From NCBI GenBank assembly GCA_947474705.1, contig CANJJS010000055.1, positions 1 through 33,775 of the forward strand: a stretch of 33,775 bases of DNA. The letters are read 5' to 3'. The notes beneath the pieces are model-generated. The model saw nothing but the letters and a program-made list of their open reading frames with translations. It did no database searches and was not told where the DNA came from. Below are positions 13,738 through 22,466 of the stretch, piece by piece. This DNA comes from Acetobacteraceae bacterium. GTDB taxonomy: Bacteria > Pseudomonadota > Alphaproteobacteria > Acetobacterales > Acetobacteraceae. The stretch's first letter is position 1; every line of letters begins with the position of its first letter. A program made the position numbers and the translations under genes.

Positions 13738-13813
13738 CCCCCCATCGTAGCGCATCCCACACCGGTGGAAAGGTTCGAAGCCCAGGCTCGACCGGCCCGT
13801 GCATGCGTCAGCG

Positions 13814-14039
13814 CTGGGGCGTTGCCCCAGACCCCACGGGGGGCGCTGCCCCTCGACCCCACCAGGGCGGGAGCCCTGGACCCGATCGATTTGGGGGATG
13901 AATGAGGGAGGGGCATCCGAGACGTTGCAACCTCCGTATAGGCCCTCCCTCATTCATCCCCCAATTAATGGGTTCCAAGGGCTCGCCCTTGGCGGGTTCG
14001 AAGGGCAGCGTCCTCGCGGGGTCCGGGGCAGAGCCCCGG
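13814..14039. repeat. Structured repeat, copy A (hairpin chain with variable 22-bp stem)
   Basis: Seven hairpins in a row. Small ones are at 13814-13830 (CTGGGGC-GTT-GCCCCAG), 13840-13852 and 13862-13879 (CCAGGGC-GGGA-GCCCTGG). The large one has a perfect 22-bp stem, 13891-13912 with 13943-13964, and a 30-nt loop. Then come 13975-13992 (CCAAGGGC-TC-GCCCTTGG), a weaker one near 13999-14016, and 14023-14039 (CCGGGGC-AGA-GCCCCGG). It lies between divergent genes (MFS and TauD), so it is not simply a terminator. The same architecture recurs at 20222-20451. No transposase gene is attached. I do not recognise a named family. It could be a miniature mobile element, a structured RNA or a recombination site. 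Confidence 0.85.
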
Positions 14040-14131
14040 CGTTAACATATGCACAGGCCGATCAAGCCCAGGGTTTGACACCCCTCCCCCGGTTTGGAAG
14101 AGTCGGCGCTTGTGGAAAGGGCGGAGCCGAT

Positions 14132-15019
14132 ATGAGCAATACCTTGGAGCCTATCCCGCTGACGGGGCCTCGGGCGGATGAGACGCTGTCCTTGCCGGAT
14201 TTTGGCGGTATCGAGATCGAGGGGATCGATCTGTCGAAACCGTTGAGTCAGGAGCGGAAGGACTGGATTATCCGCATGTTCCGGACGCATCCGGTGGTGG
14301 TGTTCCGGGGGCAGGATCTGACCAAGGACGCGCAATATGCGTTTACCCTGAATTTTGGCGAAATCGAGGGTCTGCACGTCAATCGGCACATCGACCCCGT
14401 GAAATACTCGCCAGTGCACACGGTTTCCAATCTCGGGACCGATGGCAGGCCGGGCGCGCCGATCCGGGAGCGGGGCAATTATTATTGGCACAGCGACAAA
14501 TCGTATCACGATGTGCCCTCGCTGATGACGATGTTGCACGGGGTGGAGATTCCCTCGCGCGGCGGAGAGACGCAATTCGCGAATTTGGCGAAGGCCTACG
14601 CGGCGCTGGACGAGCCGACGAAGCAGCGGATCGAGGGGTTGCGTGCCGTCCATAGTTGGGAGCGGAGCCGCATCCAGTCGAACAGCCTGCCGGCGACGGA
14701 AGAGCAAATCCGGGAACGGCCGGCGGTGAATCATCCGATCGTGCGGACGCATCCGGACACAGGTCTGAAGTCGCTGTATTTGGGCAACCACGCCTCGCAT
14801 ATTCTGGGCTGGCCAGAAGAAGAAGGGCGGGCGCTGATCCGCTGGCTGGAGGCCTTCGCGACGCAGGCCCGGTTTGTTTATTCGCACAGTTGGCGCAAAG
14901 GCGATCTGACGATCTGGGACAATCGCTGCACCGTGCATCGTGCGTTGCAACACCAGAACATGAACGCGGAGCGGCGGGTGCTGCACCGGACCGTGGTCAA
15001 GGGAACGGTGCCGTACTGA
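14132..15019 (+). CDS. TauD/TfdA-family Fe(II)/2-oxoglutarate dioxygenase
   Basis: 295 residues from the ATG at 14132, with GGAG about 6 nt before it; the upstream extension crosses the structured repeat. The iron triad is H120 and D122 in YYWHSDKSYHD plus H269 in IWDNRCTVHRAL; the 2-oxoglutarate arginine is probably R281 or R282 in AERRVLHRT. RGGETQFAN and NHPIVRTHPDTG are typical of the family. It would hydroxylate or cleave a small acid in the cytoplasm. It is the first gene of a four-gene plus-strand operon, one base before the dehydrogenase start. A TTGACA hexamer at 14075-14080 could be a -35 box, but no good -10 follows. The substrate is unknown. Confidence 0.93.
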   Translation: MSNTLEPIPLTGPRADETLSLPDFGGIEIEGIDLSKPLSQERKDWIIRMFRTHPVVVFRGQDLTKDAQYAFTLNFGEIEGLHVNRHIDPVKYSPVHTVSNLGTDGRPGAPIRERGNYYWHSDKSYHDVPSLMTMLHGVEIPSRGGETQFANLAKAYAALDEPTKQRIEGLRAVHSWERSRIQSNSLPATEEQIRERPAVNHPIVRTHPDTGLKSLYLGNHASHILGWPEEEGRALIRWLEAFATQARFVYSHSWRKGDLTIWDNRCTVHRALQHQNMNAERRVLHRTVVKGTVPY

Positions 15020-15020
15020 C

Positions 15021-15992
15021 ATGAAAATCGTCATTCCCGATGAATATCAGGACGCCATCGAGCGGCTGCCCTGTTACGCCTTGCTCGACGACCACGATGT
15101 CACGCGCTACCGCGAGCCCGCGCGCGATTTCGAGGATTTGGTTCAGCGCCTGTACCCGGCGGAGGCGATCGTCGCCATCCGGGAACGCGTGACCTTCGAT
15201 CGGAAGCTGATCGAGCGGTTGCCAAACCTGAAGTTGATCGCGCTGGTCGGGCGGAACGCGACGACGATCGATTATGCCGCCTGTACCGAGCATGGGGTGA
15301 CGGTGTCCCGCGGGAAGAGCAATTCGCCTCACTCGCCGGCGGAACTGACGGTGGCGCTGATGATGGCGTCGCGGCGGAACATCGTCATCGAAGCGGAACG
15401 GATGCGGCGGGGGGAATGGCCTTATACGCTGTCGCACCGATTGCACGGCTCGACGCTGGGGATTTTCGGGCTGGGGAACATTGGCGCGCTGGTCGCGAAG
15501 GCCGGGGCCGGTCTGGGCATGAACGTCCTGGTCTGGGGCCAGGAAACCTCGGCGAAGCGGGCTTTGGAGGCGGGGTACGCGGTGGCGCCGAACAAGGCGG
15601 CGTTGTTCGAGCAATCCGATGTGTTGTCGTTGCATGTGCGCGTCAAGCCGGACACGGCGGGGATCGTGCGGCCGGAGGATCTGGCGCGGATGAAGCCGAC
15701 GGCGCTGATCGTGAACACCTCACGCGCGGAACTGATCGCGCCGGGCGCGCTGCTGACGGCGCTGCGGGCGGGGCGGCCGGGCTACGCGGCGGTGGATGTG
15801 TACGAAGAAGAACCGGTGATGAACGGCGATCATCCGTTTCTGTCGATGCCGAATGTGATCTGCACGCCGCATCTGGGATGGGCGGAATGGGATAATTTCG
15901 ACCTGTATTACGCGGAGGCGTTCGACCAGATCGATGCCTTCGCGAAAGGTCTGCCGATGCGGCTGGCCAATCCGGAGGTGAAACCGCGCTGA
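15021..15992 (+). CDS. D-2-hydroxyacid dehydrogenase, NAD(P)-dependent
   Basis: 323 residues of the D-isomer-specific 2-hydroxyacid dehydrogenase family (SerA/GyaR-like). The Rossmann turn is GIFGLGNIGALVAKAG (about residues 148-163). The catalytic set is Arg in NTSRAELI (about 235), Glu in DVYEEEP (about 263) and His in CTPHLGWAEW (about 284). The substrate-binding loop is VGRNATTIDYAACTEHGV. It interconverts a 2-hydroxyacid and a 2-oxoacid in the cytoplasm. The single-base gap after the TauD stop and TGATG overlap with the next gene show an operon. A likely role is oxidising or reducing the product of the dioxygenase step. Confidence 0.92.
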   Translation: MKIVIPDEYQDAIERLPCYALLDDHDVTRYREPARDFEDLVQRLYPAEAIVAIRERVTFDRKLIERLPNLKLIALVGRNATTIDYAACTEHGVTVSRGKSNSPHSPAELTVALMMASRRNIVIEAERMRRGEWPYTLSHRLHGSTLGIFGLGNIGALVAKAGAGLGMNVLVWGQETSAKRALEAGYAVAPNKAALFEQSDVLSLHVRVKPDTAGIVRPEDLARMKPTALIVNTSRAELIAPGALLTALRAGRPGYAAVDVYEEEPVMNGDHPFLSMPNVICTPHLGWAEWDNFDLYYAEAFDQIDAFAKGLPMRLANPEVKPR

Positions 15993-16903
15993 TGGACCCG
16001 GACCTGATCGCTTACTCGCCGATCGCGCAAAGACCGGCGTTGCGCTGGCCCAACGGGGCCCGCGTGGCGCTGTGGGTCGTGCCGAATATCGAACATTACG
16101 AGTATCTACCGAAATTCGTGAGGACGCGCGATCCCTGGCCACGCTCGCCGCATCCGGATGTTCTCGGGTATTCGCAGCGGGATTATGGGAACCGGGTGGG
16201 GTTGTGGCGCTTCTTCGACCTGTCGGACGCCTTGGGGCTGCGGTGTACCGTCAGCCTCAGCATGACCGTGATTCAGCATTATCCCGCGATATTGGAAGCG
16301 ATGGAGAAGCGGAAATGGGAGTTGATGTCCCACGGCATTTATAACACCCGTTACCACTGGGATTTTTCCATCGAGGAAGAGCGCGCGGCGATGCTGGAAA
16401 GCCGGGACATCCATCGGAAACTGACGGGTCGCGAACAAAAAGGCTGGTTCAGTCCGGCGATCACCAACACGCTGAACACCTTCGATCTGGCGGCGGAATG
16501 CGGGTTCGAATACACCGCCGATCTGTATCACGACGACCAGCCATTTCCGCTGAAAGTAAAGACGGGCAAACTTCTGTCGGTTCCCTATACGATCGATCTG
16601 AACGACGTCATTGTCCATCGCCGTGGCGAAGAAGCGGACGCCTTCGCCCAACAGATCAAAGATCATTTCGACACGGTCTACGCCGAGGGGGCGGAGCAGG
16701 GCCGCGTCATGTGCGTCGCGCTGCATCCGTTCTGGGTGGGCCAGCCGCACCGTACCAGAGCGATCCGCGAAGCCTTCGAATATATTCTTTCCCATGCCGG
16801 CGTCTGGCAAACCACGGGCGAGGAGATCGCGGGATGGTATAACGCCAATTATTTGCCGTTGATCGAGGCGCATCTGGCCGCGCGGGAGGCCGCGAATGGT
16901 TGA
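15992..16903 (+). CDS. NodB-fold polysaccharide deacetylase-family hydrolase, paralogue 1 (PuuE-like)
   Basis: 303 residues; the start overlaps the previous stop (TGATG), with GGAGGTG about 11 nt upstream. The fold is recognised from RWPNGARVALWVVPNIEHYE, GNRVGLWRFFDLSDALGL, ELMSHGIYNTRYH, GWFSPAITNTLNTFDLAAECGFEYTADLYHDD and VALHPFWVGQPHR. The classic TFDDG metal motif is replaced by PNIEHYE, so a metal-dependent chitin-type deacetylase is unlikely. This resembles the metal-independent PuuE allantoinase/amidohydrolase branch. There is no signal peptide, so it acts in the cytoplasm, probably on an amide bond of a small molecule. It is clearly homologous to the next gene. Confidence 0.85.
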   Translation: MDPDLIAYSPIAQRPALRWPNGARVALWVVPNIEHYEYLPKFVRTRDPWPRSPHPDVLGYSQRDYGNRVGLWRFFDLSDALGLRCTVSLSMTVIQHYPAILEAMEKRKWELMSHGIYNTRYHWDFSIEEERAAMLESRDIHRKLTGREQKGWFSPAITNTLNTFDLAAECGFEYTADLYHDDQPFPLKVKTGKLLSVPYTIDLNDVIVHRRGEEADAFAQQIKDHFDTVYAEGAEQGRVMCVALHPFWVGQPHRTRAIREAFEYILSHAGVWQTTGEEIAGWYNANYLPLIEAHLAAREAANG

Positions 16904-17822
16904 GCACGTGCCCGCCAAAACACCGCCGGTTGGGGAAATTCGTGAAGCGGGGATGGATCACGGGCATTATCCGTTCCGCGCCTTGCCGGACGCGCCGGTG
17001 TTCGCCTGGCCGGGCGGAGCGCGGCTCGCCTTCACCGTCACTTTGGTGCTGGACCATTGGGAACTGGAACCGCCGCCGGGCGAAAGTCCGGACCCGCGGA
17101 TTGTCTCGCCACTGGGAAAATTCCATCCGGACTGGCTGACCTGGAGCCATCGGCTGTATGGCGCGCGCGTCGGAATCTTTCGCGTTTTGGAGGTGCTGGA
17201 CCGGTTCGGGATCCGGCCCAGCGTGGCGTTGGGGACGGAGGCGGCGAAGCGGTATCCGGAACTGGTGGACGCGCTGCTGCGTCGCGACGCGTGTTTCATG
17301 GCGCATGGGGATTTCGCGACGCGGCGCCTGACCAGCCGGACGCCGGACGAGACCGCCCGGATCGTGGCGGCGCGAGACATTTTGGCGGGGATCGTGGGCC
17401 AGGCGCCTTTGGGCTGGTGCGGTCAGGATTTTAACGAGTCGGCCGATACGCCCGCTCTGCTGGCGGAAGCTGGGTTCGAATACACGACAGATTGGGCGAA
17501 CGACGACCGGCCGTTCCTTTTGGGGCCTTATGACGGGCGCCATTTGGTGGCGCTGCCGCCTCAGCCGGAATGGAACGATCTGGAGTGCATGTGGTTACGC
17601 CGGGTCTCGCCGGCGGTATGGGCGGCGAACATCGTGGAGGCGTTCCGGACGCTGCACGCGGAGGGTGGCAATGTGTTCAACCTGACGCTGCATCCCTGGA
17701 TCGCCGGGCAGGCGCATCGCATTCGTTATTTGCGAGAGGCGTTGCATGGGATCATGGGTGTTCCGGGCGTTTGGCACGCGACGACGGACGAGGTGGCGGC
17801 GGCGGCGCGGGCTCGGTTATAA
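16896..17822 (+). CDS. NodB-fold polysaccharide deacetylase-family hydrolase, paralogue 2 (PuuE-like)
   Basis: 308 residues from the ATG at 16896, 8 nt inside the preceding gene, with GGGAGG 7 nt upstream. A second ATG at 16953 aligns better with the start of paralogue 1 and is a fair alternative. Shared with the neighbour: WPGGARLAFT, GARVGIFRVLEVLDRFGI, FMAHGDFATRR, GFEYTTDWANDDRPF and LHPWIAGQAHRIRYLREAL. Motif 1 reads LVLDHWEL instead of TFDDG, again lacking the metal-binding pair. It arose by tandem duplication and then diverged, so the pair may form a heteromer or act on successive substrates. It ends 30 nt before the convergent PhyH gene. Confidence 0.84.
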   Translation: MVEHVPAKTPPVGEIREAGMDHGHYPFRALPDAPVFAWPGGARLAFTVTLVLDHWELEPPPGESPDPRIVSPLGKFHPDWLTWSHRLYGARVGIFRVLEVLDRFGIRPSVALGTEAAKRYPELVDALLRRDACFMAHGDFATRRLTSRTPDETARIVAARDILAGIVGQAPLGWCGQDFNESADTPALLAEAGFEYTTDWANDDRPFLLGPYDGRHLVALPPQPEWNDLECMWLRRVSPAVWAANIVEAFRTLHAEGGNVFNLTLHPWIAGQAHRIRYLREALHGIMGVPGVWHATTDEVAAAARARL

Positions 17823-17852
17823 TCCCGGCCGGCCGCCCCGAACGCCCCCTGC

Positions 17853-18650
17853 TCAGGCCGCCTTCCGCTCCCGTTCCCGCGCCAGCCGCGCCAGCGCGCC
17901 TTCGTCCGTCGGAACAATCGGCGAGAAATCCGTATGCGCGATCCATTCCTTCCGCGTTGGCGTCCGGATGTAATTCGAAACCGCGTTCAACGTGAGATAC
18001 ACGATCTTCCGCGGATAAGGCGTGATATTTCCGGCGGACCCGTGCACCAAATTGCCGTGGAACATCAGCAGCCCGCCCGGCTTCCCGGTCGGCGCCACCA
18101 CGCCGCCTTTGTCGACGAGTTTCGTCACCACGTCCTCGTCCAGCGTCCACAACGGATACGATGTCGTGGTCGTATCGTGTTCCGCTTCCAGCACCCCGAT
18201 CGTATGGCTGCGCGGCACCAGCATCAGCGGTCCGTTGATCGGCATGACCTCGTCGAGGAACACCGCGATGTTCATTGCCTTCGGCTCCGGCATACCATCG
18301 TCGCGAGCCCAGGTGCCGTAGTCCTGGTGCCATTGCCAGACATCGCCGGTGAAGGAGGCTTTGGCGTTGATTTTGAACTGGTGCATGTACACCTGCTCGC
18401 CGAAGATCTGCTCGATCGGATCGATCATCCGCGGATGGCGCGCCAGCAGCCCGAACGCGTCGTTATAAAGATGCGCGGCGAAGGCGGTGCGAGGCGCGCC
18501 GGAGCGTTCCCGCCAGACTTCGGGGCGGTCGTGCCGGTAGATCTCGACGGCTTCCTCGCGCAGGAACGCGCATTCTTCTTCCGTGAAGGTGTCCGGCAGA
18601 AACAGGAAACCTTCCTCGTGGAAGTGACGGATTTGTTCTGGCGTCAACAT
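17853..18650 (-). CDS. Phytanoyl-CoA dioxygenase (PhyH)-family oxygenase
   Basis: 265 residues from the ATG at 18650, with AAGGAG 9 nt upstream inside the end of the FAD gene. The longer frame to 19985 is antisense-frame read-through of that gene and is rejected. It is an Fe(II)/2-oxoglutarate enzyme: H108 and D110 in WQWHQDYGTWA, H203 in GNLVHGSAGN, and R214 in PYPRKIVYLT for 2-oxoglutarate. The N-terminus LTPEQIRHFHEEGFLFLPD is typical of PhyH/EctD-like enzymes. It is a cytoplasmic hydroxylase of unknown substrate. It lies 14 nt downstream of the FAD-linked dehydrogenase and is co-transcribed with it, so the hydroxylated product could be a 2-hydroxyacid that the neighbour oxidises. Confidence 0.92.
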   Translation of the reverse strand: MLTPEQIRHFHEEGFLFLPDTFTEEECAFLREEAVEIYRHDRPEVWRERSGAPRTAFAAHLYNDAFGLLARHPRMIDPIEQIFGEQVYMHQFKINAKASFTGDVWQWHQDYGTWARDDGMPEPKAMNIAVFLDEVMPINGPLMLVPRSHTIGVLEAEHDTTTTSYPLWTLDEDVVTKLVDKGGVVAPTGKPGGLLMFHGNLVHGSAGNITPYPRKIVYLTLNAVSNYIRTPTRKEWIAHTDFSPIVPTDEGALARLARERERKAA

Positions 18651-18664
18651 CGGTGTCGTCTCCT

Positions 18665-20104
18665 TCACGGAAGTACCTTGCCGGGGTTCATCAGTCCCAA
18701 CGGATCGAGCGCGTCCTTGATCCGGCGCATCAGCGCGAGTTCCGCGCCGCCGCGCCAGTCCGGCATCATATAGGGTTTCAGCTTGCCGATCCCATGTTCG
18801 GCGGAGAAGCTGCCATCGTATTTCCGCACGACTTCGTTCACGGTTTCCATGATCGGGTGGTCCTGATCCAGGAACCAGGCGGGATCGGCGCCCACGGGCT
18901 GTTCCAGATTGAAATGAATATTCCCGTCGCCCATGTGCCCGAACGGCACGCAGCGCACGCCCGGGATCAGCTTTTCGCAAGCGGCGGTGGCCTCGTCGAT
19001 GAAAGCCGGCACTTTCGACACGGGCACGGAGACGTCGTTCTTGACGCTCGCGCCCTCGCGCTTCTGCGCTTCCGAGTGTTCCTCGCGCAGCCGCCAGATC
19101 GCGGCCCGCTGCGCCTCGGATTCCGCGATCGCCGCGTCCTGGACGACCCCGTCCGTCAGCGCGCCTTCCAGCACGAACTCCAGCGAGGCCCGCAAGCCCG
19201 CGTTCGGCCGCGGCGTCGCCAGTTCCACCAGCACATAGAATGGCGCGGGCTTTTCCACGGGGAGCGCCGCGTTCGGAATATGCTTCAGCACGAAGGACGT
19301 CCCGAGCCCCGACATCAACTCGAAGGCGCTGATCGCCGCGGCGTCGTGCGCCTGCACCCGCGCGAAGAGTTCCAGCGCGTCCGCCGCCGTCGCGACCGCG
19401 CAGAACGCCACCGCCGTCTCCTTGGGTTGCGGCACCAGTTTCAACACGGCGGCGGTGATGATGCCCAAAGTCCCCTCGGACCCCACGAACAACTGCCGCA
19501 GGCAATAGCCGGTATTGTCCTTCCGCAGCCGCCGCAGCCCGTTCCAGATGGTGCCGTCCGGCAGCACCGCCTCCAGCCCCAGCACCAGATCCCGCGCGTT
19601 GCCGTAACGCACCGTATTGTTGCCGCCCGCGTTCACCGCCAGCACGCCGCCAATCTGCGCGGTGCCCTCGGACGAGATCGACAGCGGCAGCAAACAGCCC
19701 TTCTCCGCCGCGAAATTCTGCGCCGCCTTCAGCGTCACCCCCGCCTCGATCGTCAGCGTCATGTCCACGGGATCGATATCCCGGACCCGGTTCAGCCGCG
19801 CCGTGCTCAGCACCAGCTCCGACCCATCCTCGTTCGGCACGGCCCCGCCGACCATCGACGTATTGCCGCCCTGCGTCACGATCGGCACCCCCGCCGCGAC
19901 ACAGAGTTTCACGACGGCGGCGACTTCGTCCGTATTCCCGGGCCGGATGACCGCGCTGGTCCGGCCCTTGTACAGGCGCCGCCAATCCTCCGACGCCGCC
20001 GCGGTATCGGACGCATCGGTCAGAATCCCGCGATCCCCAACCACGGCGCGAATGGCGTCGAGCAAGCCCGGCGTGATGGCGGAAACAGTCGCGGCGTCAG
20101 GCAT
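18665..20104 (-). CDS. FAD-linked D-2-hydroxyacid dehydrogenase (GlcD/D2HGDH-like)
   Basis: 479 residues from the ATG at 20104, with GGAG 8 nt upstream. The N-terminal PCMH-type FAD domain shows GRTSAVIRPGNTDEVAAVV, VTQGGNTSMVGGAVP (about 73-87), the SSEGTAQIGGVLAVNAGG core and FVGSEGTLGIITA. The C-terminal FAD-oxidase domain shows the metal-binding GHMGDGNIHFN (about 386-396) and SAEHGIGKLK, ending LMNPGKVLP. The family oxidises D-lactate, D-2-hydroxyglutarate or glycolate and passes electrons on to an ETF or quinone. Together with the hydroxyacid dehydrogenase at 15021, the block has two enzymes for 2-hydroxyacids. It is the first gene of a two-gene minus-strand unit; structured repeat B lies just upstream. 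Confidence 0.92.
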   Translation of the reverse strand: MPDAATVSAITPGLLDAIRAVVGDRGILTDASDTAAASEDWRRLYKGRTSAVIRPGNTDEVAAVVKLCVAAGVPIVTQGGNTSMVGGAVPNEDGSELVLSTARLNRVRDIDPVDMTLTIEAGVTLKAAQNFAAEKGCLLPLSISSEGTAQIGGVLAVNAGGNNTVRYGNARDLVLGLEAVLPDGTIWNGLRRLRKDNTGYCLRQLFVGSEGTLGIITAAVLKLVPQPKETAVAFCAVATAADALELFARVQAHDAAAISAFELMSGLGTSFVLKHIPNAALPVEKPAPFYVLVELATPRPNAGLRASLEFVLEGALTDGVVQDAAIAESEAQRAAIWRLREEHSEAQKREGASVKNDVSVPVSKVPAFIDEATAACEKLIPGVRCVPFGHMGDGNIHFNLEQPVGADPAWFLDQDHPIMETVNEVVRKYDGSFSAEHGIGKLKPYMMPDWRGGAELALMRRIKDALDPLGLMNPGKVLP

Positions 20105-20221
20105 GGCGGGCTCCAAAAACCGGGAGGGAAACGAACCAACACAGCTTTAGACCACCACCCCCCCGCCGCGAAATCCCCCGCGGGTGGGTGCCCGAGGTCA
20201 CCGGGGGCGGATGTTCAGGCC

Positions 20222-20451
20222 CTGGGGCGCTGCCCCAGACCCCGCGGGGGGCTCTGCCCCCTCAACCCCCGCCAAGGCAGGGCCTTGGATGCCGTCTCTT
20301 TGGGGTGTTTGAAGCAGGGGGGCCTACGGTGGCTGTGCAACAGCCTCGGATGGACCCCCTGCTTCAAACACCCCAATTAAATGGGTCCAGGGCCCCCGCC
20401 CTGGTGGGGTCGAGGGGCGAAGCCCTCGTGGGGTCCGGGGCGGAGCCCCGG
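20222..20451. repeat. Structured repeat, copy B (hairpin chain with variable 22-bp stem)
   Basis: It has the same plan as 13814-14039. Small hairpins are at 20222-20238 (CTGGGGC-GCT-GCCCCAG), 20247-20261 (GGGGGC-TCT-GCCCCC) and 20272-20288 (CCAAGGC-AGG-GCCTTGG). The large perfect 22-bp stem is 20300-20321 with 20355-20376, with a 33-nt loop that holds its own hairpin GGCTGT-GCA-ACAGCC. Then come 20387-20404 (CCAGGGC-CCCC-GCCCTGG), 20411-20428 (CGAGGG-GCGAAG-CCCTCG) and 20435-20451 (CCGGGGC-GGA-GCCCCGG). Both big stems begin TTGGGG at the base, but the remaining 16 bp differ. It lies upstream of the FAD dehydrogenase and just after the SARP regulator stop; the rest of the 20105-20483 gap is C-rich sequence with no visible gene. 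Confidence 0.85.
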
Positions 20452-20483
20452 GGCTTCAACATCAACCCCCGACGACCTCAGGC

Positions 20484-22466
20484 TCACCCCTCGGCCAGCC
20501 CGCCGCCGCGAAGGCCTTCCGCGTATCGCGCCACATCCTCCGGCCGTGTCAGCGGCGAGCGCCTGATCGCGTCGCGCACGGTAAAGCCCGGCTCCAGCTT
20601 CAGCAGCCGTGCCCGCACATCCGCGGCTTCCCGCTCGCACCCCAGATTCCCCAGCGCCGCCAAATGCGCCTTGAAGGCGGAGGAAAACCACGGATTCAAC
20701 TCAATCGCCGCGCGGCCCGCCGCCGCCGCCGCCTCGAACTCCCCGCGCAACAAATGCGGAGTCACGATCGCCGCCTGAAAGAAAAACAGATGCGGATCCG
20801 ACGGCGACAGCTCGATCGCCTGCCGCATCCGGGCGATCGCCGTATCGTGCGCCCCCAGATAACTGTGGGAGAAACCTGAAAAACACCACGCGATGGCCAG
20901 GTTCGGGTTCAGCGAAATCGCCCGGTCGTGCAACACCGTCGCCTCTGACGGCCGCTTCATCAGGAAGCCGCGGACATGGCCCGCCAAAGTCAAAGCGCGC
21001 GCGTCGTTGGGATCCAGAGAAACCGCGGTATCCGCCAGCGCCGCCGCGCGAGTCGCCGCCCCCTCTGGGTCCGGCGCCCAACCCTGTCCGACCAGGAACA
21101 AATGCCAGTACGCATACCAGGCCATGGCGTCCGTTTGACCCGGATCGGCCTTCAACGCGGCTTCCAACAACGCCCCCGCGCCATGAAACGCCAGCCGGTC
21201 GAGCCGGTAAATCGCGGGCACCGCGCGTAACACCAGTTCGCGGGGGGACGCGGTGCGCGGATTGCCGCTGGCGGCGCGCTCGCCCTCGCGGATCAGCAGT
21301 TCGGGATCGATTTGCGCCACGATCGCGGCGCCGACCTCTTCCTGGATGGTCAGCGTATCGCCGCCGGCGCGGTCGAACCGATTGGCCCAGATCACCTCGC
21401 CACCCAACCGCAGATCCAGCAGCCGGACGATGATGCGCAGCCGGTCGCCGCCGCGCTGAATCGTGCCGTCCAGCACCAGATCCAGATCGATATCCGGCCA
21501 GTTCATCCGCTCTTCGTCGATATCGCCCGCGAGCGCCGCCATCGAACTGACCGAAACGCAGGAAATCCACCGGAACCGCGACAGCGCCGTCGTGATCTCC
21601 TCCGCGAGCCCGGCGGCGAGGTCGTCGTCGCCATGCCCGCCAATGACCCGCATGCGGCGAATGCCCAGCCGCAAACCCGATCGGACGGCCCCGGATTCGG
21701 ACTGTCCCGGCTCGCCCCGTCCGCGTGGGCGGTCCCGGGCGGGCACCTGAACCTTCGCCAGAAAATCCGCCATGTCCGGCGGAGGCGGACGGTCCGTCGC
21801 AAGCCCGGTGGCCTCGCGCCATTGTTCCACCGCGAACAGCGCCGCGGCCCGGTCGCCGGCCTCGTGATGCCCCTGGATCAAAGCGCGCCACGCCGCGTCG
21901 TGCGCCGGATCGATCCGCAACAGCGCCCGCGCGATGGTCATCGTCTCCGGCCCGGCGGGCGCGTCCCGCAGCAGGCTCTCACCCGCCGCGCCGGCATGGG
22001 CGCGCAACCGGAGGCGCTCCGTCCGCGTCCATTCGTCGAAGGCCGGGTCGAGCCCGCCCAGATCCTCCAAAAACCCTTCGCGCATCAGGCTCAACAAGGC
22101 GTCTTTCGGCGCCATCGGCCCGATGGCATCCACCGCGTCGACGGAAATGTCGCGGGGACCGAAGGCCAGATGATGCCGCTCGGCCACCAGCACCTTGGTC
22201 CAGGCCGGGCCGGGCGCGTCCTGAAGTTCGTGGACGGCCTGGCGGAGCGAGGCGCGGGCCTGCTCTCGTTCCCGCTGACTCCACAACAATCCGGTAAGGT
22301 CCATGCGCAGAACGGGTTTGGGCGCGTTCAGCGCCAGCACGGCCACCACCGCCCGGGTCTTCCGCGACCTGGGCAAATAATCCGCGCCACGGGAATCGCG
22401 GATCGACATCCCGCCGAACAAGCGGATTCGCAGCAATGGTTCCCCGTTCGACTCGGCTCGATCCAT
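20484..22466 (-). CDS. SARP/BTAD-type transcriptional regulator with TolB-like and TPR domains
   Basis: 660 residues from the ATG at 22466. Residues of about 10-95 resemble the OmpR/SARP winged helix (LLRIRLFGGMSIRDSRG, SRKTRAVVAVLALN, LLWSQREREQARASLRQAV). Residues 100-235 form a BTAD-like helical repeat (AWRALIQGHHEAGDRAAALF). About 265-375 is a TolB/FlgO-like domain found in CadC- and cyclase-type regulators (AAGLAEEITTALSRF, LVLDGTIQRGGDRLRIIVRL). The C-terminal 250 residues are TPRs (AISLNPNLAIAWCFSG, AIELSPSDPHLFFFQ). There is no membrane segment, so it should be a cytoplasmic DNA-binding activator sensing a protein or ligand through the repeats. It is divergent from the YeiH exporter, which is a plausible target, but this is inferred from position only. 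Confidence 0.85.
   Translation of the reverse strand: MDRAESNGEPLLRIRLFGGMSIRDSRGADYLPRSRKTRAVVAVLALNAPKPVLRMDLTGLLWSQREREQARASLRQAVHELQDAPGPAWTKVLVAERHHLAFGPRDISVDAVDAIGPMAPKDALLSLMREGFLEDLGGLDPAFDEWTRTERLRLRAHAGAAGESLLRDAPAGPETMTIARALLRIDPAHDAAWRALIQGHHEAGDRAAALFAVEQWREATGLATDRPPPPDMADFLAKVQVPARDRPRGRGEPGQSESGAVRSGLRLGIRRMRVIGGHGDDDLAAGLAEEITTALSRFRWISCVSVSSMAALAGDIDEERMNWPDIDLDLVLDGTIQRGGDRLRIIVRLLDLRLGGEVIWANRFDRAGGDTLTIQEEVGAAIVAQIDPELLIREGERAASGNPRTASPRELVLRAVPAIYRLDRLAFHGAGALLEAALKADPGQTDAMAWYAYWHLFLVGQGWAPDPEGAATRAAALADTAVSLDPNDARALTLAGHVRGFLMKRPSEATVLHDRAISLNPNLAIAWCFSGFSHSYLGAHDTAIARMRQAIELSPSDPHLFFFQAAIVTPHLLRGEFEAAAAAGRAAIELNPWFSSAFKAHLAALGNLGCEREAADVRARLLKLEPGFTVRDAIRRSPLTRPEDVARYAEGLRGGGLAEG

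Follow-up and report, generated by a model that had tools for sequence, protein, structure and literature searches.

How can the long central stem of a DNA repeat differ in sequence between two copies and yet be perfectly paired in both? The question is raised by a 33,775-nucleotide stretch from an Acetobacteraceae bacterium (GenBank assembly GCA_947474705.1, contig CANJJS010000055.1, positions 1 to 33,775; hereafter the window), which holds two hairpin-chain elements, copy 1 and copy 2, that a preliminary description of the sequence placed at 13814-14039 and 20222-20451. Their central stems are, as described there, perfect 22-bp inverted repeats starting with TTGGGG (Table 1), for which the chance expectation, with a loop of 3 to 60 nucleotides (nt), is about 7e-7 per window under an independent-base model of the same length and composition. 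Eleven of the next 16 positions differ between the copies and every difference is matched on the opposite arm, just as had been estimated. It was argued that such matched differences need selection for pairing, arm-templated copying or the insertion of copy-specific palindromes. Arm-templated copying has turned out to be the best supported of the three. The comparison is one between two subfamilies of a diverged family (arm types X/Z in copy 1 and Y/X in copy 2), so that the 11 differences are not changes at one site; the X/Z type itself occurs in one of 51 scored host copies, or in two of 51 if Z/X is counted.

Both elements belong to a dispersed family of palindromic repeats with a common anatomy, paired arms, strand symmetry and inverting loops. 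That the stems of this family are kept paired by arm-templated copying during template switching is on balance probable, and some selection perhaps accompanies the copying.

A dispersed family of intergenic palindromes

Searches of the host genome (G000) and its relatives, as the preliminary description had proposed, yielded 120 complete distinct copies: 52 in the host, 42 in G030, 14 in G031, five each in G004 and G001, and one each in G003 and G022, these being other genomes of the genus (L numbers below denote loci). With copy 1 as the query, at least 81 matches were obtained on the two strands of the host genome (DNA search, 40 of 188 candidates scored), each copy matching twice because the element is nearly symmetric, and matches to the end motif numbered 85 + 78 in the host genome versus 0 in the control. 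The exact end motif was found in 6 of 33 genomes of the genus and in one of 249 from the family (102 genera), the host's own, four other members of the genus among the 249 being without it; a slightly narrower end motif was found in one of 289 class genomes, again that of the host. A looser DNA search (E 1e-3) matched 20 of the 33 genus genomes, and counts based on the exact motif are therefore too low for diverged copies. Plasmids and viruses as vehicles of spread were considered and rejected: no IMG/VR contig carries the slightly narrower end motif, no plasmid record matches copy 1, and a weak 53-nt match to copy 1 in an unannotated phage record of human faecal origin (MT838741.1:1485-1537) is probably a chance match of GC-rich hairpins. 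None of 91 copies lies inside an open reading frame, as judged with a simple codon-usage caller trained on the genes of the window. The elements are a lineage-specific family of non-coding, intergenic palindromic DNA repeats, of which no description was found among the titles and abstract openings of the open-licence PMC literature.

Anatomy of the element

Each copy consists, in order, of an outer stem arm, the small hairpins A, B and C, a central stem S with a loop of ~26-30 nt, the hairpins C', B' and A', and the second arm of the outer stem. The outer stem is copy-specific and imperfect, and extends both window elements beyond the ends first assigned to them (Table 1). Across the family, a copy's own left and right flanks pair better with each other than flanks of different copies do, with z-scores in successive 20-nt steps outward of 16.2, 16.0, 7.4, 6.1, 2.2 and -1.7 in the host and 3.9, 5.0, 4.7, 0.7, 1.9 and 0.4 in G030. 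The closest paralogues (five groups) have in common the sequence from A to A' plus ~8-12 nt per side, and most of the outer stem is therefore copy-specific. Six small hairpins had been claimed for each copy; if a perfect core of 6 bp or more is required, there are six in copy 2 and four in copy 1, both of whose B hairpins are shorter or imperfect and fall under this threshold. The minimum-energy fold of both copies is a single global long hairpin, which was rejected as the maintained structure since in a set of 116 copies the variable pair of hairpin A is matched locally in 103 and 101, as against 49 and 41 for pairing across the element, in agreement with the earlier view of a chain of hairpins. 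Some loops (e.g. those of L066, L010 and L077) contain an inner imperfect palindrome around GACGTT..AACGTC, which in L066 is perfect and makes the stem 35 bp long. Five further host copies were found later, plus one short derivative with a central deletion (L181:289-413, on G000:C14) which retains A-B and B'-A' and has lost C, the central stem and the loop.

Stem arms change in pairs

The central stem could be placed in 113 of the 120 copies, with no mismatch among the inner 20 pairs in 69 copies, one in 28 and more in 16. Stems differ from copy to copy, and neither outcome that the preliminary description had named as contrary to its claim, a family of only two copies or stems that are unpaired or fixed elsewhere, was encountered. 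Six copies with a shifted register, mostly due to one-arm indels, were excluded before pairs were counted, as were the seven unplaced ones; the 107 usable stems comprise 2,140 inner pairs, 51 of them not Watson-Crick. Mismatch between a copy's own arms was 1.3% in the host, 4.4% in G030, 2.1% in G031, 1.7% in G001 (three copies) and 0% in G004 (four copies), compared with 38%, 17.6%, 43%, 36% and 36%, respectively, between arms of different copies; registers were picked for best pairing, which slightly helps the own-arm figures, and the cross-copy control was made in the same frames. The observed pairing was never attained in within-genome permutations (10,000 each for G000, G030 and G031). 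A tree of the arms requires a minimum of 175 paired changes in the host and 63 in G030, with 13 and 32 one-arm states, counts that are approximate because copies recombine with one another. Stems of 24 bp (four copies) and 25 bp (ten copies), equal in both arms, coexist in the host, where 24 of 51 copies could be aligned gap-free; such length changes are a weaker witness for arm-templated copying than the behaviour of the loop.

Loop inversion and probable arm-templated copying

Loop orientation is random relative to arm orientation in 52 copies of G030 and G031. At two pairs of orthologous sites with flanks 89-93% identical (L051/L101 and L081/L098) the loop is inverted and the arm orientation unchanged, and at three others (L090/L121, L083/L052 and L054/L099; flanks 86-93%, two pairs matched on one side only) loop and arms are inverted together. 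The L081/L098 pair has also kept its flanks and arm types while one stem position changed as a pair. Random loop orientation and loop inversion at orthologous sites point most strongly to arm-templated copying. Template switching is reported to homogenise the arms of inverted repeats and to invert their spacers in yeast (PMC8604942), and compensatory changes and loop inversion in RNA genes are presented as footprints of one process (PMC8794818). The present family shares with these cases, and with E. coli quasipalindromes as outlined in PMC7202029, homogenised arms (one-arm indels in 7 of 113 placed copies being the exceptions), an inverted spacer or loop and mismatches corrected to pairing. 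Unlike the individual loci described there, it is a single repeat family with more than 100 parallel copies in several species.

According to the proposed mechanism, a replication fork would switch template inside the hairpin and one arm would be copied from the other (quasipalindrome correction). A mutation in one arm would then be either erased or passed to the other, such that the stem sequence would drift while its pairing changed little, and an inter-strand form of the same switch would invert the loop. Under a neutral model with a mismatch fraction of ~2u/r, correction would be ~45 (G030) to 150 (G000) times faster than mutation per site. We infer template switching, and not selection on folded DNA, to be the agent. 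One copy, L099 of G031, has a left flank matching L054 and a right flank matching L146, two different G030 elements. Unless this reflects an assembly join, recombination between copies occurs as well; the copies may serve as rearrangement points, or L099 may be chimeric.

Evidence for DNA rather than RNA

Had the stem an RNA function, one would expect G.U pairs to persist longer than A.C on the sense strand. In tandem gene contexts, G.U and A.C on that strand number 4 versus 4 in the stem, 90 versus 103 in the outer stem (p 0.39) and 16 versus 30 in the small hairpins (p 0.054, in the opposite direction). This lack of a G.U excess, together with a loop whose orientation is random and inverted between orthologues, indicates DNA rather than RNA. 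A structured RNA was one possibility offered in the preliminary description, next to a single-stranded DNA intermediate and a recombination or transposition site. Such an RNA, transcribed from each copy and kept paired by compensatory base changes, would account for the strong covariation and for the high predicted stability of copy 2 folded as RNA (-199.6 kcal/mol, z -14), but it would not lead one to expect these results, and the window has no Rfam match at gathering score; with 5' and 3' gene ends used equally when pooled (112 and 114 for 113 scored copies), we regard it as decidedly improbable.

The gene contexts of the 113 scored copies are tandem in 58 cases, convergent in 28 and divergent in 27 (27, 7 and 16 in the host; 18, 16 and 6 in G030), compared with 202, 51 and 58 among all adjacent gene pairs of the first locus set. 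Tandem gene pairs thus have fewer elements than their share, as would be the case if operons had no space for them. Their exclusion from open reading frames, a median distance of 28.5 nt to 3' gene ends and the excess of convergent over divergent contexts in G030 would suit a bidirectional transcription terminator or insulator hairpin, but the excess is reversed in the host and absent from the pooled counts, and copy 1 itself lies between divergent MFS and TauD genes, which makes such a role extremely improbable. Copy 2 is flanked by the 5' end of an FAD-oxidase gene on one side and by the 3' end of a TPR-protein gene on the other.

Points that do not fit and possible recognition of folded DNA

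Several observations weigh against arm-templated copying. The inner end of the stem is near-fixed in sequence in 30 host copies, a feature not predicted by neutral copying; the absence of any change there in the arm-tree count is partly built in, because stems were placed by GGCC/GGGC. The C hairpins are of unlike type in all 90 scored copies of G000 and G030 and in 13 of 13 of G031, which is likewise not predicted and means that copying has never homogenised them in these genomes; in G001, G003, G004 and G022 they are of the same type in five of ten copies, scored with templates made for other species. The seven copies with a one-arm indel (L053, L057, L076, L092, L097, L109 and L152) include five of the 39 from G030, with L070 a possible further case and L045 badly placed. 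Dropped and unplaced copies and best-pairing registers bias the counts toward pairing, and the number of copies with equal arm lengths was discarded as support since a register shift makes at least four unequal copies look equal. Transition:transversion spectra are alike for one-arm and two-arm changes, which discriminates weakly between models. Finally, all genomes are fragmented assemblies.

An assembler that forces arms to be equal or flips loops is nevertheless a very improbable source of the pattern. The host and related genomes are drafts of ~60 to 990 contigs and some contigs start at or inside an element (G030:C254:1-202, G031:C197:1-87 and G031:C201:3-225), as expected if palindromes break short-read assemblies. 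The stems, however, are much shorter than a sequencing read, copies are distinct in stem, loop and flanks, species that were assembled separately show the same pattern, and the paired stem change of L081/L098 stands within conserved flanks and arm types.

The near-fixed inner end of the stem and the unlike C arms likely reflect a degree of selection on the element as DNA, or else a mover dependent on them. In the main alternative explanation, stems would be paired because a protein recognises the folded DNA, as a cruciform or single strand, in a hairpin-type mobile element or in the manner of attC sites, unpaired copies being lost or immobile. The DNA-level symmetry, both of the features just named and the local pairing of hairpin A fit this explanation, as do close paralogues (95-97%, five groups) that stand in unrelated flanks, with no within-species flank match longer than 60 nt. 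We consider it unlikely as the main cause, however: PF01797 (Y1) transposases are present in 5 of 33 genus genomes, with one in the host and none in the element-bearing G030, G031, G004 and G001; no TIGR02249 integron integrase exceeded the cut-off in the 33 genomes, the weak matches being of the kind that all 14 control genomes also gave (Y1 transposase and integron integrase were the enzyme families searched); neither a clean empty site nor a common outer end was seen; and selection alone does not predict loop inversion. For 14 of 18 chosen G030 sites a comparison was made with G031 (84% complete; 40 of 128 candidates scored), a small test in which seven had no match, L058 and L053 were occupied, L086 had a decayed half, L050 and L085 matched on one side and then diverged, L082 was uncertain and none was a clean empty site with a target duplication. 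The G031 site orthologous to L087 of G030 (L176:600-980) contains a different large palindromic repeat of the GTCATTGCGAGC...GCAATCCAG type; one intergenic palindrome may take over the site of another. It is conceivable, though in our view improbable, that the family is a new class of mobile element which travels or is replicated in folded, single-stranded form and is recognised by its fold rather than its sequence. The constant small hairpins would then be handles, the unlike C arms would give polarity, and the stems would be rewritten by arm copying in each round, leaving every copy with a stem sequence of its own and a freely inverting loop.

Comparison with known repeats

In BIMEs, small hairpins are combined into larger units, as in this family. 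REP, BIME and REPIN repeats are dispersed, intergenic, palindromic, lineage-specific and of high copy number, all of which holds for the present elements; GTAG- and CGTC-tagged REPs are treated in PMC3733652 and REPINs in PMC3116915. REPs, however, measure 20-40 bp and bear a GTAG or CGTC tag at one end, and CGTC repeats are given as missing in Acetobacteraceae (PMC3733652), whereas the core here is ~226 bp with outer stems added and its stems are copy-specific. Assignment to REPIN/RAYT was rejected on the distribution of Y1 genes given above, the three Y1 loci (L113-L115) having no element match, and the REPIN hairpin format of 20-40 bp with a constant stem was rejected on the size of the unit and its copy-variable stems (GTAG and CGTC tags were not searched for). 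Integron attC sites have stems that vary in sequence and are conserved in structure, as here; unlike attC sites in cassette arrays, the elements are single dispersed copies, and an attC identity was rejected on the integrase result.

ERIC-type imperfect palindromes are likewise short, non-coding and intergenic, with a large stem-loop and no gene of their own. The same traits characterise bacterial miniature inverted-repeat transposable elements (MITEs). Papers on such repeats include PMC10969869 and PMC2229807. Unlike MITEs, the present elements have no constant outer end that we could see, and Y1, the only transposase family tested, has a distribution that does not follow theirs; constant terminal inverted repeats were rejected because the five paralogue groups share A to A' plus the short extensions noted above and their outer stems are copy-specific. 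The family resembles REP/BIME and MITE-like repeats in habit, without their tested defining features.

Table 1. Positions in the window of the parts of both elements
Feature	Position	Strand	Basis
Copy 1 outer stem, left arm (copy-specific, imperfect)	13757..13813	.	Local alignment with right arm; family-wide own-versus-cross pairing
Copy 1 hairpin A (7 bp, loop 3)	13814..13830	.	Sequence; local covariation in 116 copies
Copy 1 hairpin B (short)	13837..13855	.	Sequence and alignment
Copy 1 hairpin C (arm type X)	13862..13879	.	Sequence; arm typing
Copy 1 central stem S, left arm (perfect 22 bp)	13891..13912	.	Sequence
Copy 1 loop (orientation variable within family)	13913..13942	.	Sequence; loop orientation in relatives
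Copy 1 central stem S', right arm	13943..13964	.	Sequence
Copy 1 hairpin C' (arm type Z)	13975..13992	.	Sequence; arm typing
Copy 1 hairpin B' (imperfect)	13999..14016	.	Sequence and alignment
Copy 1 hairpin A'	14023..14039	.	Sequence
Copy 1 outer stem, right arm	14040..14097	.	Sequence
Copy 2 outer stem, left arm	20178..20221	.	Sequence
Copy 2 hairpin A	20222..20238	.	Sequence
Copy 2 hairpin B	20247..20261	.	Sequence
Copy 2 hairpin C (arm type Y)	20272..20288	.	Sequence; arm typing
Copy 2 central stem S, left arm (perfect 22 bp)	20300..20321	.	Sequence
Copy 2 loop (inner 6-bp hairpin 20331-20345)	20322..20354	.	Sequence
Copy 2 central stem S', right arm	20355..20376	.	Sequence
Copy 2 hairpin C' (arm type X)	20387..20404	.	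Sequence; arm typing
Copy 2 hairpin B'	20411..20428	.	Sequence
Copy 2 hairpin A'	20435..20451	.	Sequence
Copy 2 outer stem, right arm	20452..20494	.	Sequence

Implications

A conserved RNA is usually considered proven by strong covariation; this family is a clear warning case in which intense covariation coincides with evidence against RNA. Template switching has been proposed to explain compensatory evolution in RNA genes (PMC8794818). The strictly unlike C arms raise the testable question of a mover or binder. The interest of the family lies mainly in covariation without RNA and in a many-copy record of template switching, its more than 100 parallel copies in several species amounting to a natural experiment from which rates of stem rewriting and loop flipping by this process might be obtained.

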